A stretch of 64,000 bases of DNA, taken from positions 1 to 64,000 of the forward strand of contig CANGIU010000002.1 of the NCBI GenBank assembly GCA_947454255.1, written 5' to 3'. The notes under the pieces were generated by a model, which was given only the letters and a program-made list of their open reading frames with translations, did no database searches and was not told the origin of the DNA. This document shows positions 8,429-15,514 of this stretch, piece by piece; within the stretch, counting starts at the first letter, position 1, and every line of letters begins with the position of its first letter. Made by a program: the position numbers and the translations under genes. The stretch comes from Micrococcales bacterium (GTDB lineage: Bacteria; Actinomycetota; Actinomycetes; Actinomycetales; Microbacteriaceae).

Positions 8429-9148
8429 TTACTTCTTCTTTGCAACAACCTTCTTTGCAGCAGGCTTGCGAGCTACAGTCTTCTTTGCAACAACCTTCTT
8501 CGGTGCTGCCTTCTTTACTGCAGGCTTGCGTGCAACAGTCTTCTTTGCAACAGCCTTCTTAGGTGCAGCCTTCTTAGCTACAGTCTTCTTTGCAACTGCC
8601 TTCTTAGGTGCAGCCTTCTTTACAGCAGGCTTGCGTGCAACAGTCTTCTTTGCAACAGCCTTCTTAGGTGCAGCCTTCTTAGCTACAGTCTTCTTTGCAA
8701 CTGCCTTCTTAGGTGCAGCCTTCTTTGCAACTGCAGCCTTCTTTACAGCAGGCTTGCGAGCTACAGTCTTCTTTGCAACTGCCTTCTTAGGTGCAGCCTT
8801 CTTTGCAACTGCAGCCTTCTTAGGTGCAGCCTTCTTTGCAACTGCAGCCTTCTTAGGTGCAGCCTTCTTAGCAGCAGGCTTCTTAGCCGCAGCTTTCTTT
8901 ACTGTTGTTGCCATTTGTTTCGCTCCTTTGTTTACGGTCTTTGCGACCTTAGCAGTAACAGCAGGTGTGCCTTTTTCAATGGCAGTCGCTGCTTTTACTA
9001 CACCTTTAATTGTTGCTTCCTTGGCGTCTTCAAACTTATCGTCGAGATCGTGCTTCTCGATAAATTGGTTAACGTCCTTGGTGATTTCCGCTGCAGCTTT
9101 TTTAGCCTTGCGGTTAGTTCCTCTTACGAGGTCGTCTAACAAGCCCAT
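8429..9148 (-). CDS. Lysine/alanine-rich histone H1-like protein with KAAPKK repeats
   Basis: 239 residues: residues 1-80 form a charged, probably helical N-terminal segment (MGLLDDLVRG start, DVNQFIEKHDLDDKF in the middle), then about 160 residues are almost only Lys, Ala, Pro, Val and Thr in repeats such as KKAAPKKAVAKKTVARKP. Such tails bind DNA or RNA in histone H1-like proteins and in actinobacterial HupB. There is no HU fold here; the N-terminus contains none of the HU signature. It may be a nucleoid-associated protein, but that is inference. A GGAAG stretch 5-7 bp before the ATG is a plausible RBS, and a strong terminator follows. The repeats also hold a long open frame on the opposite strand, which I regard as an artefact. 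Confidence 0.85.
   Translation of the reverse strand: MGLLDDLVRGTNRKAKKAAAEITKDVNQFIEKHDLDDKFEDAKEATIKGVVKAATAIEKGTPAVTAKVAKTVNKGAKQMATTVKKAAAKKPAAKKAAPKKAAVAKKAAPKKAAVAKKAAPKKAVAKKTVARKPAVKKAAVAKKAAPKKAVAKKTVAKKAAPKKAVAKKTVARKPAVKKAAPKKAVAKKTVAKKAAPKKAVAKKTVARKPAVKKAAPKKVVAKKTVARKPAAKKVVAKKK
8521..8726. repeat. 105-bp tandem duplication within the H1-like gene
   Basis: Bases 8521-8621 and 8626-8726 are identical over 101 nt as I read them, a 35-codon period. Smaller repeats of the KAAPKK-coding units flank it on both sides. The identity at third codon positions indicates recent expansion rather than selection on the protein alone. Confidence 0.85.
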
Positions 9149-9733: not shown

Positions 9734-10351
9734 TTAGTTATTTTTTGGAAAGTGATACAAAATTTTCGGAACTTTTTTCTGCAACCAACGATTTAGAACA
9801 CCATCTTTGACTTCGTCATAGGTTAAAGCAAATATGTAGTGATCTCTCCAGTCACCATTGATGTGAATGTAATTCTTCTTTACGCCTTCATACCTAAGAC
9901 CTAGCTTCTGAACGACGCGAATGCTGGCTCCGTTTTCAGGCCTGATATCTATCTCTACTCGATGGAGCCCAACTGCATTGAACATGTAGTCCATCGCTAG
10001 TGCAACCGCAGTTGGAGTAATTCCCAGCCCAGCCACTTCAGGTGCTATCCAGTAACCAATGACACAGGATGAGACGGAACCATGAAGAATATTTGCCACA
10101 TTTAGCTGTCCAACTATTTCTCCCTGATACAGAATTACAAATGGCATGCCATCACTTGATTCAAGTTGCCTAAGCAATGATCTGATTTGAGCTCTAAAGT
10201 CGAAGGAAATTGGCCCATGAGGATTTGTTGCCTCCCAAGGGCGGAGCCACTCACGGTTACCCAATACCAGGCGTTCAATTGACTTGGCATCTTTGGTTCT
10301 AATGATCCGAAGACTAATGTCTCCATGGGTCAGCATAAAAGAGTTGCTCAT
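9734..10351 (-). CDS. GNAT family N-acetyltransferase (RimJ/RimL type)
   Basis: 205 residues with the GNAT fold typical of RimJ-like ribosomal-protein N-terminal acetyltransferases: ISLRIIRTKDAKSIERL at the start, WLRPWEATNP, VIGYWIAPEVAGLGITPTAVAL (acetyl-CoA loop region) and VHRVEI-like/GASIRVVQKLGLRYEG near the end. The usual R/Q-x-x-G-x-G/A loop is recognisable but atypical (AGLGITPT). Substrate not predictable. It is divergent from the 5-formyl-THF cyclo-ligase gene; the actinobacterial pairing of these two genes is common. Confidence 0.88.
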   Translation of the reverse strand: MSNSFMLTHGDISLRIIRTKDAKSIERLVLGNREWLRPWEATNPHGPISFDFRAQIRSLLRQLESSDGMPFVILYQGEIVGQLNVANILHGSVSSCVIGYWIAPEVAGLGITPTAVALAMDYMFNAVGLHRVEIDIRPENGASIRVVQKLGLRYEGVKKNYIHINGDWRDHYIFALTYDEVKDGVLNRWLQKKVPKILYHFPKNN

Positions 10352-10358
10352 GCTGGCA

Positions 10359-10364
10359 AGATTA
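10359..10364 (-). promoter_or_regulatory. Candidate -10 box (TAATCT) for GNAT gene
   Basis: On the minus strand TAATCT precedes the ATG at 10351 by seven bases, consistent with a leaderless transcript. The divergent cyclo-ligase ATG is only 18 bp away, so space for control elements is minimal. Confidence 0.4.
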
Positions 10365-10369
10365 GTGGC

Positions 10370-10933
10370 ATGAATGATATTGCGCTTGCCAAGGCACAGC
10401 TACGAAGCAAAATACTTGCTGAACGCTCAAATCGCATAAGTTCAGAAGTTACTGAAATTGCTCTCACGCAGTTGCTACTAGAACTTGTTGAAAGGTCTAA
10501 GCCGACCAGAGTCGCAACATATATCTCATTCGGATCTGAACCCAGCACGCAGTTGTTCATCAATGAACTGATCACCCACAAGATCGAAGTGATAGTTCCT
10601 AAAGTAAGCGGAACAGACCTGAAGTGGTTTCGTTTTGATGGTCGTAGCACGGTTTATTCAGCTCTTGGAATGCAAGAGCCTGATATCGCTGCATTGGAAG
10701 AGGTGACACTTCTGCCAACAGATCTAATGATTATCCCAGCTCTTGCGGTGGACAGAATGGGGAACAGACTTGGTCGAGGTAAGGGATTCTTTGATAGAGC
10801 TTTGGCAGGTATGAGCAATCTGGTATTCGCTGTTTGTTTTGAAGCGGAGTATATAGAAACCTTGCCAAGTGAGGAGCACGATCGTAAGGTCCAGGGTCTG
10901 GTTACCGAACTGGCTATCCACGACTTAAACTAA
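10370..10933 (+). CDS. 5-formyltetrahydrofolate cyclo-ligase
   Basis: Converts 5-formyl-THF to 5,10-methenyl-THF using ATP in one-carbon metabolism. Recognised from the N-terminal KAQLRSKILAERS helix, the VATYISFGSEPST segment, and the C-terminal nucleotide-binding loop GNRLGRGKGFFDRAL. The frame is open from 10325, but that start lies inside the divergent GNAT gene; ATG 10370 gives MNDIALAKAQLR and a normal 187-residue protein. The fmdB gene follows after 4 bp, a conserved actinobacterial neighbour. Confidence 0.9.
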   Translation: MNDIALAKAQLRSKILAERSNRISSEVTEIALTQLLLELVERSKPTRVATYISFGSEPSTQLFINELITHKIEVIVPKVSGTDLKWFRFDGRSTVYSALGMQEPDIAALEEVTLLPTDLMIIPALAVDRMGNRLGRGKGFFDRALAGMSNLVFAVCFEAEYIETLPSEEHDRKVQGLVTELAIHDLN

Positions 10934-10937
10934 ATAC

Positions 10938-11141
10938 ATGCCTACCTATTCATACAAATGTGCCAGCTGTGCGCATGAGTTTGACATCCAGCAGTCGATT
11001 ACCGAGACAGCGAAGTCAGAATGTCCAGAATGTGGTGGCGAATTACAAAAAGTTTTCGGCAAAGTTGGTATCAGTTTCAAGGGAACTGGCTTTTATAGAA
11101 CTGACAACAATCAGAAACCGGCTGATCCTAAAACCGACTAA
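10938..11141 (+). CDS. FmdB family zinc-ribbon protein
   Basis: Sixty-seven residues beginning MPTYSYKC with two CxxC pairs (CASC, CPEC), followed by a glycine-rich FGKVGISFKGTGFYRTD segment and a disordered tail. This is the standard FmdB/putative regulatory zinc-ribbon layout; actual function unknown. It starts 4 bp after the cyclo-ligase stop, and its stop overlaps the convergent large gene by four bases. Confidence 0.92.
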   Translation: MPTYSYKCASCAHEFDIQQSITETAKSECPECGGELQKVFGKVGISFKGTGFYRTDNNQKPADPKTD

Positions 11142-14100
11142 CCCCAGTGTGGCGGTTTATCTTCTCTAAGCCTCTGGTCATTCGAGGTATTGGTATCCCC
11201 CCAGGCTGCGTCACTATCTTCAAATACTCTTGCCACAGGAACTGTGTTAAGCATTGTCGGAGTCACCTCGATACCAAACCTGGTGGCTATTCTTTCGGCA
11301 ACTGCCTGCGGGTCACTAAATACTTCGAATGAATACACCCTCTGGTAAGTCCAGCCAAGGGATTTCAAAAGAGCTGGCCTTAGCCTGATGCGCTCTGTGT
11401 AATTCAAATCAGAGTTAGACCAATCTGGTTCAACGACTAGGAATTGATTTCCATAAGAAGCAATCAGTGGGATTCGCTTACCAAAGCCTTCAACTACCCG
11501 AACCCCGAAGCGCTTTAGCCTTCTAGCCAAATCGGCAAGCATTGGATCGCTGTCAAAAGTGTCCGATTCGATTGATTCGTTATAGCTAGGTTTTAAAAGC
11601 GTTGGCAAATACTCAGTAGCGCCTTCATTCCTGATTTCAGGTAAGTCATATGAGCTGAAGCAGCTGACGATGGTCATCTTGTATCGAGCGCTTACCAACA
11701 TATTGGCTAACCAGCGTTTAGCCTCTGGTTCGTTGAGCAGTCCGAAATGGCTAAGTATTTTGCCCTGCGGGGTTTTGCCAAAACCGATACTGAAAATGAT
11801 TCGATCTGCTTGACGGTGATTTAGATCGGACAAGCTGGTTATCTCAAACCGCTCACGGCCATGTTTTTCAAAGAACTCTCTGAGATCGGGGTTTGCATCA
11901 AGAGCTACGTCCAGAGCATCACGGATTGCTTCAACTTCGATGCTGCTGGCGCTAACTACTAGTAACGACTGTTCTGGATTGTTGGAAACATGCCCAACTA
12001 CCAACTCGATTACTTTGTTCACTTCAGCAACGGGAGCTTCCGTGCTGGCAGTGACATTTCTATTAGAACGAGTATCGCCATCAACGATTATCAGTTCCAG
12101 GGAACTCTCACCATTAAACTCAGCGGCACTAGGTTCAATCTCTAACCTGCCTTGGTAGAACTCTTTGTTTATGAGAGGCCCAAACAACTGCCCCTTGCTT
12201 CGATAGGAGCGTCTTAGAGTTTCAACTCCGAACCGGCTAGCTATCATGTCATAAACACTTGGCGCTTCAGGAGCGCGCGGCTTAAGAGCTAATTGCCATT
12301 CAACTTCAAAGCCATTGGGATCTGCAATCACAGGATCACCAAAAACAACAACCTGCTTTGCTCTCACAAGAGCACTTAGGTTCTCGGCAACGGTAGTTCC
12401 AGCTGCATCAAGAACTAGGACAACATCGAAGTTAGTGTCCTTTTTTAGAATCTCCGCGACCTCGTAAGGAGAAACTCCAACGTGAGAGACCAACCGAGGC
12501 CAAATAATGCCAGCTCCGGTATTGAGCTCTAAGAATTTAGAAACACGTTGCTTCAACAATGCCCGCAAGCGCTCGGTTTCTTTAGGGAAGTCTTGGATAG
12601 CGGTTTTCCAACCATTTGCAGTCCGACTGGAAATCTCTTTCCTGGTTTCAGCTAGAACTAGCTGTTCAGCTTTGACGAAGTCTGCTTCTAGCTCAGCAAG
12701 AGACTCTGGGCTGTATTGAGCAAATGCGTTATCGCCTGCAAGCAGGTATTCAAGTGCTGATAGCCACCAGCACTGATCAAACTCTGCAACAAGGTGCTCA
12801 TTACGAGAATTACTCGCAGCAAGTGATTTTACTAGAGCGTCTAGCCCAAGTGCGCTCACCCGTTTACGAAGATCGTTTCTGACCACCATGTTTTCAAGTG
12901 GCGCAGTATCTTCGTTTAGTCTTTGTAATTTACTACCTAGCTCAGGCAGTGGAAGTTCCAATAGCCCTAAACGAGATTTTCCTTGGTCTAGATGTGAATC
13001 GAGTTTGATTAGGTCAGCCACCAAAGATTGGTAGGTAACCTGGGCATCTTCAATTCCAACTGGAACTACCGGCGCAATCTGTTGAGCACTTAGCAGCTTC
13101 CAAGCTTTAGCCTGCTCCGATATTTGCAATAGGGCTGAATGTATATCTCCAACTGAAACTCCAGGTCGGACATACTCTTTAGCATGTTTGCTTAGTGCTC
13201 GTCTGGTCTTCCCCGACATGCCAGTCTTATCTTTTCTTGGCGAAGTGGCAGCAATCAGATCATCCAGTGGGCGATCGAATACATCTGGTATGAATCGGTC
13301 AAGTGTTGACCTAATGCTTATCAGCAAGCGAATATATTCGCCCCATTGAGCCACATTTTGAGCTGCGGGGAAACCAACCTGCTCAATAAATACATCCAGC
13401 TTTACGCTTAGCTGAGGAAGAACATCTTCACTGAGTCTTCTGGTTAGAGCAGTGAGTTTTGGAATCTCATTCGTTTCATCAAACTGAGCGTTGAACCAAG
13501 GGCTGTCGTTGGTTGCTTTATCAAATTCTCCAAGCGAAACCGCTTCATTTAAAAGTGCTAGGGCGGCCGTCCTATTTCTGTTTTCAAATAGTGCTGGACC
13601 GGTAATTCGAGCACTAGTCTTAGGCGGTTTTGGAAGAGCACTTAGCTCCGCCAATTTAGCCAATGCATCATTGACGCTGATTCCTAGGACCGGGTGTTTT
13701 CTCTCTAGTGAATCGAAGTAGTGATCTAGTTTCTCTTCGATGCCCGCCTTGTTTGCTCTAGCGGCTGGAAGATTGGCAAAGGTGGCTTTCTCAAAGCGCG
13801 ATAGCGCATTCACGATATCCAGCCATGCATTATGAGTTCTAACTAACAAGCCGTTTAGACCCACCTGAGCAAGACGATTATTTAGTTCATTTAGAGTTTG
13901 CCTACGCGGAGCAACAACCAGAGCACGCTTATCAACTGCCGTTAGAGCCGCTAATAGATTTACTACAGTTTGGGTATACCCTGCACCTGGCAGCGTCTCA
14001 ACAGCGAAGCTTGAACCCTGAAGTGCTTTATTGAGAATCTCTAACTGCACTGAGTCAGCATCGGCGACTACCAAAACTTCATCACTGGATTTTGTAACTG

Positions 14101-14788
14101 GAAGATCAGAGTCTGGGTCAGCTATTGCTGCGGCTAATTTTGGGGCAACTTTAGGAAGTTCATTCAACATATAGGTTGGTGCGAGAGTGGCATTGGTCAG
14201 CACCAACGTTCTTTGTATTTCAAGATCTGGAATGCTCTTGGTGGCTTCTGAAACAAAGCTCAGCAAACTGATTGGCACAAGGTCTGTTGCCTCGATATAG
14301 ATTCTGGTTAGTCGAGCAGTATCTAGGCTCAATCCATAATGATTACGGAGAGTGAGAATTAGTTCTGGGTTGACAAATGGATCCCCAACTAGGCCAAGCT
14401 CATAATCTGACCCCTTGCGAATGAGTTCCGCTCTCCAGAGCATGACTGGGATTCTAAGATCAAGTTTTGCTGGATTGAAATCAACTGCACCGGCTAATAG
14501 GTAGAGAGTGTGAATCCCATAATTGTTCTGAAGTCTTTCGCTCTTGATTTTTACTCGCTTAGCTTCAGTTAGGGCTTTAGAGTATGCGATTGGATCGCGA
14601 ACAAGATTTGCTAGAAGCCCTCGATGGCTCTTGGTAAACATGGAAAGGCCAACTGGGTGGCAACGTTCAAGATTCACTAGCCCAAGAACATCGAGGTCAA
14701 GGTTGGTCAGCGGATTCGCACCGCCGATGCCTCGAATTTCTTCAAGCCAGCGCAAGTATTGTTCTTGGGGAGCAGTTGACTCGGTCAT
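11138..14788 (-). CDS. Degenerate SF1 helicase-like protein with C-terminal restriction-endonuclease-like domain
   Basis: 1216 residues. The start (WLEEIRGIGGANPLTN) resembles the DUF4011 region of actinobacterial helicase-nuclease proteins. At the Walker A position (about 266-272) I read PGAGYTQT where an active family member has GxGKT: the lysine is Tyr. At motif II (about 794) I read VLVLDAAGTT where DEA is expected. Later motifs survive in outline (VVFGDP; SIGFGKTPQGKILSHFG; ANMLVSARYKMTIVS, where VTRAR is expected). The last 120 residues (RRLKRFGVRVV, LKSLGWTYQRVYSFEVFSDP) resemble the MTES_1575-type nuclease domain, also lacking the first catalytic Asp (RIPLIA instead of a IDLAV-like strand). 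It is long, intact and codon-regular, so not an obvious pseudogene. Function unknown; a non-catalytic scaffold or decayed DNA-conflict protein are options. Confidence 0.78.
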   Translation of the reverse strand: MTESTAPQEQYLRWLEEIRGIGGANPLTNLDLDVLGLVNLERCHPVGLSMFTKSHRGLLANLVRDPIAYSKALTEAKRVKIKSERLQNNYGIHTLYLLAGAVDFNPAKLDLRIPVMLWRAELIRKGSDYELGLVGDPFVNPELILTLRNHYGLSLDTARLTRIYIEATDLVPISLLSFVSEATKSIPDLEIQRTLVLTNATLAPTYMLNELPKVAPKLAAAIADPDSDLPVTKSSDEVLVVADADSVQLEILNKALQGSSFAVETLPGAGYTQTVVNLLAALTAVDKRALVVAPRRQTLNELNNRLAQVGLNGLLVRTHNAWLDIVNALSRFEKATFANLPAARANKAGIEEKLDHYFDSLERKHPVLGISVNDALAKLAELSALPKPPKTSARITGPALFENRNRTAALALLNEAVSLGEFDKATNDSPWFNAQFDETNEIPKLTALTRRLSEDVLPQLSVKLDVFIEQVGFPAAQNVAQWGEYIRLLISIRSTLDRFIPDVFDRPLDDLIAATSPRKDKTGMSGKTRRALSKHAKEYVRPGVSVGDIHSALLQISEQAKAWKLLSAQQIAPVVPVGIEDAQVTYQSLVADLIKLDSHLDQGKSRLGLLELPLPELGSKLQRLNEDTAPLENMVVRNDLRKRVSALGLDALVKSLAASNSRNEHLVAEFDQCWWLSALEYLLAGDNAFAQYSPESLAELEADFVKAEQLVLAETRKEISSRTANGWKTAIQDFPKETERLRALLKQRVSKFLELNTGAGIIWPRLVSHVGVSPYEVAEILKKDTNFDVVLVLDAAGTTVAENLSALVRAKQVVVFGDPVIADPNGFEVEWQLALKPRAPEAPSVYDMIASRFGVETLRRSYRSKGQLFGPLINKEFYQGRLEIEPSAAEFNGESSLELIIVDGDTRSNRNVTASTEAPVAEVNKVIELVVGHVSNNPEQSLLVVSASSIEVEAIRDALDVALDANPDLREFFEKHGRERFEITSLSDLNHRQADRIIFSIGFGKTPQGKILSHFGLLNEPEAKRWLANMLVSARYKMTIVSCFSSYDLPEIRNEGATEYLPTLLKPSYNESIESDTFDSDPMLADLARRLKRFGVRVVEGFGKRIPLIASYGNQFLVVEPDWSNSDLNYTERIRLRPALLKSLGWTYQRVYSFEVFSDPQAVAERIATRFGIEVTPTMLNTVPVARVFEDSDAAWGDTNTSNDQRLREDKPPHWG

Positions 14789-14865: not shown

Positions 14866-14937
14866 GCCCTCGTAGCTCAGTGGATAGAGCAGTGGTTTCC
14901 TAAACCATGTGCGGAAGTTCGATTCTTCTCGGGGGCA
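14866..14937 (+). tRNA. tRNA-Arg (anticodon CCT)
   Basis: A full cloverleaf folds: acceptor GCCCTCG with CGGGGGC, D arm GCTC/GAGC, anticodon arm GTGGT-TTCCTAA-ACCAT with anticodon CCT, 4-nt variable loop, and T arm GGAAG-TTCGATT-CTTCT. The CCA end is not encoded. It reads AGG codons. The HNH gene ends convergently 2 bp downstream. Confidence 0.95.
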
Positions 14938-14939
14938 CC

Positions 14940-15443
14940 TTAGGCAGCGTTAGCTAAACGCAAATACTCATCCCATTCAGGTTCTACTCGTTCTGCTCCT
15001 CTAACCATCCAAGCGCTTCCGGTGGGCATCTTTGGAGTAAAGGCTAGGGTCCAGCCAATTTCATGCAGAGTTTTATCTCCCTTAATGTTGTTACAGCGAA
15101 GGCAACAAGCAACTAGGTTTTCCCAAGTATCTCTTCCGCCTCTTGATTTAGGTTGCACGTGATCAACTGTGTTAGCACTTCGTTGGCAGTATGCGCACCG
15201 GTGACTATCTCTGCGTAGGACCCCTCGGCGAGACAAGGGAACATTGCGGGTGCCAGGGATACGAACATATCTACTTAGCAGAATCACTGAAGGTAATTCA
15301 TACTCCCCCGTAGCGCTATGAACTTTTCTGGCAGCTGAACCTTCAAGCACAGTTGCCTTCTTATTTAGCACCAAGATGATGGCTCTCTTAAAAGAGACAA
15401 CAGCCAAAGGCTCATAGCCAGCGTTTAGAACTAGTGTTCTCAT
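14940..15443 (-). CDS. HNH endonuclease
   Basis: 167 residues from ATG 15443. The zinc-stabilised HNH core is clear: CAYCQ ... TVDHVQPKSRGG ... NLVACCLRCNNIKGDKT, with the catalytic DH pair in VDHV and two CxxC pairs. The N-terminal MRTLVLNAGYEPLAVV block is the standard start of this actinobacterial housekeeping HNH family, so I reject upstream in-frame starts; AAGGAAG seven bases before this ATG is a good RBS. The chromosomal, single-gene setting and wide conservation argue against a homing or restriction role; function is unknown. Confidence 0.9.
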   Translation of the reverse strand: MRTLVLNAGYEPLAVVSFKRAIILVLNKKATVLEGSAARKVHSATGEYELPSVILLSRYVRIPGTRNVPLSRRGVLRRDSHRCAYCQRSANTVDHVQPKSRGGRDTWENLVACCLRCNNIKGDKTLHEIGWTLAFTPKMPTGSAWMVRGAERVEPEWDEYLRLANAA

Positions 15444-15514
15444 GTTTCTTCCTTTCGAAATCACCTGCACGGATTGCAGGTTTTCGTGAAGCCACATCGG
15501 AGCACAAACAAAAA

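Follow-up and report, generated by a model that had tools for sequence, protein, structure and literature searches.

Proteins in which a DUF4011 region is followed by a superfamily 1 (SF1) helicase and an MTES_1575-type nuclease are known from the antiphage families PDC-S37 (PADLOC) and ProA/Hhe (NCBIfam). A related gene lies on the reverse strand at 11138-14788 of the DNA analyzed here (the window), which comprises the first 64,000 nucleotides of contig CANGIU010000002.1 of a Micrococcales bacterium in the Microbacteriaceae (assembly GCA_947454255.1). The domain order of PDC-S37 and ProA/Hhe is the same as that of the intact orthologues of this gene, whereas the protein itself lacks the catalytic Lys, the Asp/Glu pair and the nuclease Asp, falls far below the NCBIfam cut-offs, and is encoded near-universally, at a single locus, in its family. 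The nuclease domain is named after Microbacterium testaceum MTES_1575, which, according to the available part of the source, unites an SF1 helicase and a Vsr-type restriction endonuclease (REase) in one protein (PMC3710099); compared by that description only, MTES_1575 differs in its length of 2,161 residues or more and in its HEPN, transglutaminase and winged helix-turn-helix (wHTH) domains. In P. aeruginosa, a DUF4011 gene is presented, in the available part of the source, as a core gene flanking a defence hotspot (PMC10250203), so core status of DUF4011 is not unique.

According to the accessible part of a study on D. radiodurans PriA, this protein binds DNA without ATPase activity, and its Walker motifs agree poorly with the consensus across the lineage (PMC4504706). 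PriA resembles our protein as a housekeeping helicase with Walker motifs degraded lineage-wide, but it belongs to an unrelated helicase family and, in the same partial source, carries Arg in place of the Walker A Lys, where ours has an uncharged residue. The accessible text on AddB and RecC describes inactivated SF1 domains that were co-opted as 'scanners' of single-stranded DNA sequence (PMC4824097), and the likeness lies in a dead SF1 helicase fold that is kept for non-catalytic DNA recognition. Unlike our protein, which is most likely Upf1-like and has no known motor partner, AddB and RecC are UvrD-like subunits of a motor complex. A frame of 1208 amino acids (aa) with a PDDEXK_1 match (22 bits, at the cut-off) is also present in the genome studied here.

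The account that we favour, at somewhat better than even confidence, is that the gene encodes a pseudohelicase, i.e., a vertically inherited orthologue of the actinobacterial DUF4011-SF1-Vsr helicase-nucleases, and that gene, fold and the greater part of the P-loop were kept for a housekeeping function. The protein descends from active-type helicases and has lost their motifs, and its gene is maintained. Its catalytic residues are gone, the losses are general in the rows read, the gene is under purifying selection, and its locus is common with intact orthologues. The retention of the gene in nearly the whole family, in a constant genomic setting, makes it probable that the disarmed protein has a useful role independent of enzyme activity. 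To our knowledge, a large helicase that an entire bacterial family keeps exclusively as a catalytically dead protein has few precedents, and no account of this protein was found in a search limited to open-access papers. As a sequence-only reading of this DNA had proposed, the frame is long, helicase-like and without an internal stop over its 1216 codons. Its parts are as follows.

11138..14788, reverse strand: pseudohelicase-nuclease open reading frame, 1216 aa, ATG start, stop at 11138-11140
14069..14788, reverse strand: N-terminal DUF4011-like region, residues 1-240; PF13195 matches in orthologues
13967..13990, reverse strand: motif I (Walker A) remnant PGAGYTQT, residues 267-274; Tyr271 at 13976-13978
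12449..13828, reverse strand: long, mostly helical insertion that separates motif I/Ia from motif II, residues 321-780, from a low-confidence model
12392..12430, reverse strand: motif II (Walker B) remnant FDVVLVLDAAGTT, residues 787-799; D793L, E794D
11609..12268, reverse strand: second RecA-like domain, residues 841-1060; best-scored part of the second model, Foldseek
11681..11695, reverse strand: motif VI remnant VSARY, residues 1032-1036; first Arg of TRAR is Ser
11264..11536, reverse strand: Vsr-type (MTES_1575) nuclease domain, residues 1085-1175; PF18741 18.3 bits, cut-off 38.2
11141..11233, reverse strand: C-terminal PPHW peptide, residues 1186-1216; matches a mini-protein encoded separately in other genomes

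The sequence-only reading had located the Walker A change in PGAGYTQT, and this held: K271 is Tyr, and a profile of 31 relatives aligned motif I without gaps to PGTGKTTT of IGHMBP2 (PDB 4b3f/4b3g, E ~8e-6). For Walker B it was right that the motif is altered, but its change of DE to DA was one residue off; the metal-binding D793 is Leu and the catalytic E794 is Asp, while A795 is ancestral (intact orthologues read FDVVIFDEASQ). This register was taken from the alignment with intact orthologues, and the PDB alignment agrees, its segment being only 3.3 bits and non-significant alone. In motif VI, where VSARY had been correctly reported, the first Arg (1033) is Ser and the second (1035) is kept; Arg1033 is kept in 55/73 rows with letters of f1, the protein's own family (f-, L- and G-numbers are labels of families, loci and genomes). 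The nuclease site, which lay beyond an earlier reading of helicase motifs only, is also lost, as the Asp of IDL is Pro1107 and E-x-D-G reads EPDW (Gly replaced by Trp1123), with E1120 and D1122 kept. Y271, L793 and D794 thus stand where an active SF1 helicase has the Walker A Lys and the Walker B Asp-Glu, and P1107 and W1123 stand where an active Vsr-type REase has the IDL Asp and the E-x-D-G of the intact orthologues. The protein would be expected neither to hydrolyse ATP nor to cut DNA. A Walker A Lys elsewhere in the protein, a check suggested with the sequence-only reading, was not found, as the 1216 aa contain no GxxxxGK[ST] and three bare GK[ST]. GFGKT (1002-1006) was rejected as a replacement P-loop, since it sits in the motif V region and intact copies have a similar segment. 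K264, which many relatives have, was likewise rejected as a substitute Lys: it is ancestral, as VVKGPPGTGK in several intact copies indicates, and this clade has Glu at that site.

The motif tallies cover 148 unique rows, which were best-scoring or picked to cover families and are not random; a few genes contribute two rows each, having been divided between contigs or search pieces. Site 271 has a letter in 81 unique family rows and is Lys in none of them (G34 Y25 A8 S5 V4 L3 I2), and DE occurs in none of the 82 family rows with letters at sites 793-794 (xD in 81, LG in one, two genes, L161/L172 and L156/L174, being counted twice). The losses are not chance, because Lys is found in 0/81 and DE in 0/82 family rows. 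Apart from the Lys site, motif I hardly varies among the f1 rows with letters (G268 72/72, G270 71/72, Q273 71/72, P267 67/72), so it was mainly the Lys that was removed, and the P-loop (PGxGxTQT) looks like one kept for its shape or for hydrolysis-free binding.

Alone against Pfam, the protein matches AAA_11 at 22 bits (cut-off 27) and the MTES_1575 REase below its cut-off, and DUF4011 (PF13195) has no Pfam match in it. The full order DUF4011 - AAA_11 - AAA_12 - MTES_1575 is present in the three intact orthologues tested (L111, L114, L130); PF13195 (cut-off 22.2 bits) reaches 28.8-47.5 bits in 3/3 intact orthologues tested, and PF18741 71.7-121.6 bits in intact orthologues. Among dead orthologues, PF13195 gives 32.4 bits in L128, 23.0 in L125, 20.3 in L117 and no match in L109. 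Full-length alignment and trees relate the protein to the intact DUF4011-SF1-Vsr helicase-nucleases, of which it is a member by descent. The 31-relative profile also matches Nam7/Upf1, with five PDB sequences in total at E <= 0.01. Two AlphaFold models, built with 10 relatives, have mean pLDDT (predicted local distance difference test) values of 50.4 and 47.8 and were used for topology and for one Foldseek search. With residues 781-1190 of a low-confidence model, Senataxin, IGHMBP2, Dna2 and Upf1 are within the first 12 hits, as are XPB, Avs3 and entries of the spliceosome; the TM-scores are low, the listed rows having a query TM of 0.19-0.28. Because of the IGHMBP2 and Nam7/Upf1 matches in the PDB and these Foldseek relatives, the fold is most likely Upf1-type SF1B.

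The ratio of nonsynonymous to synonymous substitution (dN/dS) is 0.026-0.049 in four of the nine pairs, the other five being not computable with dS near saturation. A stop occurs within at least eight of the family matches listed, all of which extend to query 1182-1204, and within six from a more sensitive search, which extend to 1177-1182; these are consistent with alignments that overrun the gene end. Family, order and class were sampled with 299, 198 and 197 genomes, respectively. A match is present in 297/299 family genomes (own genome included) and 85/85 genera, with 1-3 matches per genome among the matches listed, and also in 194/198 order genomes, where matches may include paralogues. 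The two family genomes without a match are G094 (82% complete) and G184 (94% complete); in the more sensitive search, G094 has a weak match to the ATPase part only, G184 has none, and G124 has a gene fragment and the tail only. The nearest named relatives include Rhodoluna records, and locus L039 was assigned to Microbacteriaceae. A single-contig family genome of 0.93 Mb (L165) has retained the gene in a version of 1172 aa that contains TTPGAQVTQ and VLGAGELSI, and since the gene survives there, it probably has a basic role. Two earlier suggestions are supported by these data: the state is general to the lineage, motif loss occurring in every family copy read, and the protein was probably kept in a non-catalytic form, in line with its low dN/dS, shared locus and motif loss throughout.

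The genes next to the pseudohelicase in the window are these.

10938..11141, forward strand: FmdB-type zinc-ribbon gene, 67 aa, PF09723; convergent, 4-base overlap with the helicase stop, part of the conserved locus
10325..10933, forward strand: 5-formyltetrahydrofolate cyclo-ligase (5-FCL), PF01812, part of the conserved locus
9734..10351, reverse strand: GNAT acetyltransferase, PF13302, part of the conserved locus
14940..15497, reverse strand: HNH endonuclease gene, PF01844, upstream of the helicase

A look for conserved neighbours in other genomes, also proposed earlier, revealed a shared MscL-SAF-FmdB-5-FCL locus. At least one of MscL, SAF, FmdB, 5-FCL, GalU and GNAT is present in 33/39 fetched loci (L091-L130 minus the 10-base L120), intact (L111-L114) and dead alike, and is missing from L103, L104, L110, L115, L129 and the intact L130. 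Both 5-FCL and GNAT are found in 10/10 Rhodoluna-type loci. Pfam backs 5-FCL, the FmdB-type zinc ribbon, GNAT, HNH, SAF and MscL, while GalU is a nucleotidyl transferase there; FmdB and GalU are the names that we presume for these locus genes. Because most of them share this one locus, intact and dead copies look like orthologues disarmed in place, not paralogues. Trees were built from 74 hand-picked rows in the first case and 54 in the second. Rooted on intact longer defence-like relatives (L175-L181), the intact L130 is basal, and the tree permits a single loss, with the dead rows all on one side of a branch of support 75 and the fork open; without the outgroup, two changes are needed. Loss of the motifs once and loss more often both fit the rooted tree.

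Across related families, orthologues at this one locus range from intact through half-dead to eroded, which provides a natural series for a helicase fold without ATP. Motifs are intact in f18 (6/6 unique rows), f5 (2/2) and f45 (1/1). In the rows read, the Lys is replaced by Q in f6, A/N in f7, R in f38 and f25, A in f2 and f8, and L/A in f16. The nuclease Asp is mostly kept in f6 (10/11 rows), f7 (4/5) and f16 (2/3), which suggests that ATPase loss can precede nuclease loss. Dead ATPase motifs with mostly intact nuclease Asp and E-x-D-G occur in L055-L064 and L066 (f6), L065, L067 and L070 (f7), and L108, L109 and L116 (f16), and these orthologues may represent a motor-less nuclease state. 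The extreme erosion in L096 and L097 (f4) leaves frames of > 1,200 codons in place, yet the P-loop of L096 reads EQTGRHSADD, and in the f4 extreme copies the motif III Asp is His and motif VI is lost.

Several results weigh against a housekeeping pseudohelicase. In the comparison with L039, the protein (88.6% identical) diverges faster than three of its four neighbours (HNH 95.2, GNAT 93.7, NlpC 91.2 and 5-FCL 68.6%); most of the P-loop is eroded in f3, f4, f9, f14 and f20, so the loop is not needed in those families; the ATP site is unreadable in both AlphaFold models; the Asp at 794 in 81/82 family rows leaves some acidic function open; for biochemical activity, partner and phenotype, the account draws on sequence, locus and trees; the nearest profile families are antiphage (PDC-S37 254, ProA 203.3 and Hhe 118.4 bits); and the helicase is adjoined in 9/10 Rhodoluna-type loci by an HNH nuclease gene, whose product might be an effector. 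The last two would fit an antiphage or DNA-conflict sensor, as the sequence-only reading had also suggested, in which the dead helicase would recognise invading DNA or DNA damage and relay this to another effector; Hachiman, as far as the available part of its source goes, is a helicase used as a sensor. However, the HNH gene adjoins in just 1/39 other loci, and the gene is near-universal and fixed at the MscL/5-FCL locus, unlike patchy defence genes, and is kept in the reduced 0.93 Mb genome. The NCBIfam equivalog cut-offs of ProA (1500 bits) and Hhe (2000 bits) are unmet by this protein and by three intact orthologues, and filing it under ProA/Hhe was rejected. Antiphage sensing is less likely than a housekeeping pseudohelicase, and we consider it unlikely.

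The Asp at 794, together with the preserved PGxGxTQT loop, would also suit a protein that still uses ATP at an unusual site, with E794D as the catalytic acid and another residue replacing the Lys. This is a doubtful proposal, as the P-loop Lys and the metal-binding Asp are both gone (D793 to V, L, M or A), K264 does not qualify as a replacement, this protein has also lost the motif VI Arg, and the milder K-to-R change in D. radiodurans PriA goes with no ATPase in the accessible part of that source (PMC4504706). Senataxin, IGHMBP2 and Upf1 among the structural relatives could point to a fold kept as an RNA-binding regulator, but Dna2 is also among them, no RNA-specific domain was matched in Pfam scans, and DNA is favoured by the Vsr-type nuclease domain and by the relationship to antiphage DNA systems, which makes an RNA target improbable. 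That the gene is a slowly decaying pseudogene retained by chance is hardly credible: the catalytic residues are gone and erosion goes further in some families (f4, f10), but dN/dS is low, the motif I remainder is almost invariant, and the stop-containing matches fit alignments that run past the gene end.

The last 31 residues of the pseudohelicase match WG[DE]...NDxRLxx[DE][KR]PPHW, the C-terminal motif of a mini-protein that other genomes encode separately; this mini-protein has ~50-80 aa and ends in PPHW or PPHY (e.g., L016, L050, L073, L131-L135, L137 and L138). A 33-position model matched it in 115/197 class genomes (E <= 0.01 per genome), ~2 of which may be chance; the same model misses true cases, as G106 and G258 have a PPHY frame. 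Under a strict pattern and with duplicate loci included, a PPHW-ending frame lies beside or inside the helicase in 69/90 loci with fetched flanks, and the mini-protein often adjoins MscL/SAF/FmdB. No such frame was found in the fetched flank of the 1172-aa version in the 0.93 Mb genome, and no Pfam family matched the mini-protein in three examples tested. The tail is fused to the helicase in 19/74 tree rows (17 dead, two intact), a distribution that takes 11 or more changes on the tree, and repeated capture of the mini-protein by the helicase seems likely. An exclusive partnership of PPHW with the helicase was rejected, as the frame is present in 7/8 helicase-less stretches (L131-L138 except L136). 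Locus neighbours are found in five of these seven (L131, L132, L135, L137 and L138) and not in L133 and L134, and the mini-protein usually belongs to the locus. Its class-wide distribution, without a Pfam match in those examples, points to an unknown common partner.

For the pseudohelicase, a mechanism may be proposed in which, after the ATPase residues and in this family the nuclease residues were lost in place, the groove between the two RecA domains would still bind single-stranded nucleic acid, although this step is less certain; alternatively, the P-loop might bind a ligand without hydrolysis. The protein would then take part in housekeeping DNA metabolism as a scanner, clamp or recruiter that performs no catalysis, like RecC/AddB and D. 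radiodurans PriA, and the fused PPHW tail, corresponding to the class-wide mini-protein, might dock it to a common partner. Both the binding of nucleic acid and the existence of a partner are inferred. A wider and more tentative view is that of an actinobacterial module, in which a core gene disarmed in many families would supply a Lys-less P-loop nucleic-acid scanner and the PPHW mini-protein, repeatedly fused to it, would dock a conserved partner.

Finally, we also identified a tRNA-Arg gene (anticodon CCT) at 14866-14939 on the forward strand, between the pseudohelicase and the HNH gene and on the opposite strand to both. At 8429-9148 on the reverse strand lies a gene for a 239-aa protein whose long tail consists of Lys/Ala/Pro repeats, and which was matched in Pfam to the histone H1-like nucleoprotein HC2 (66 bits, cut-off 40).

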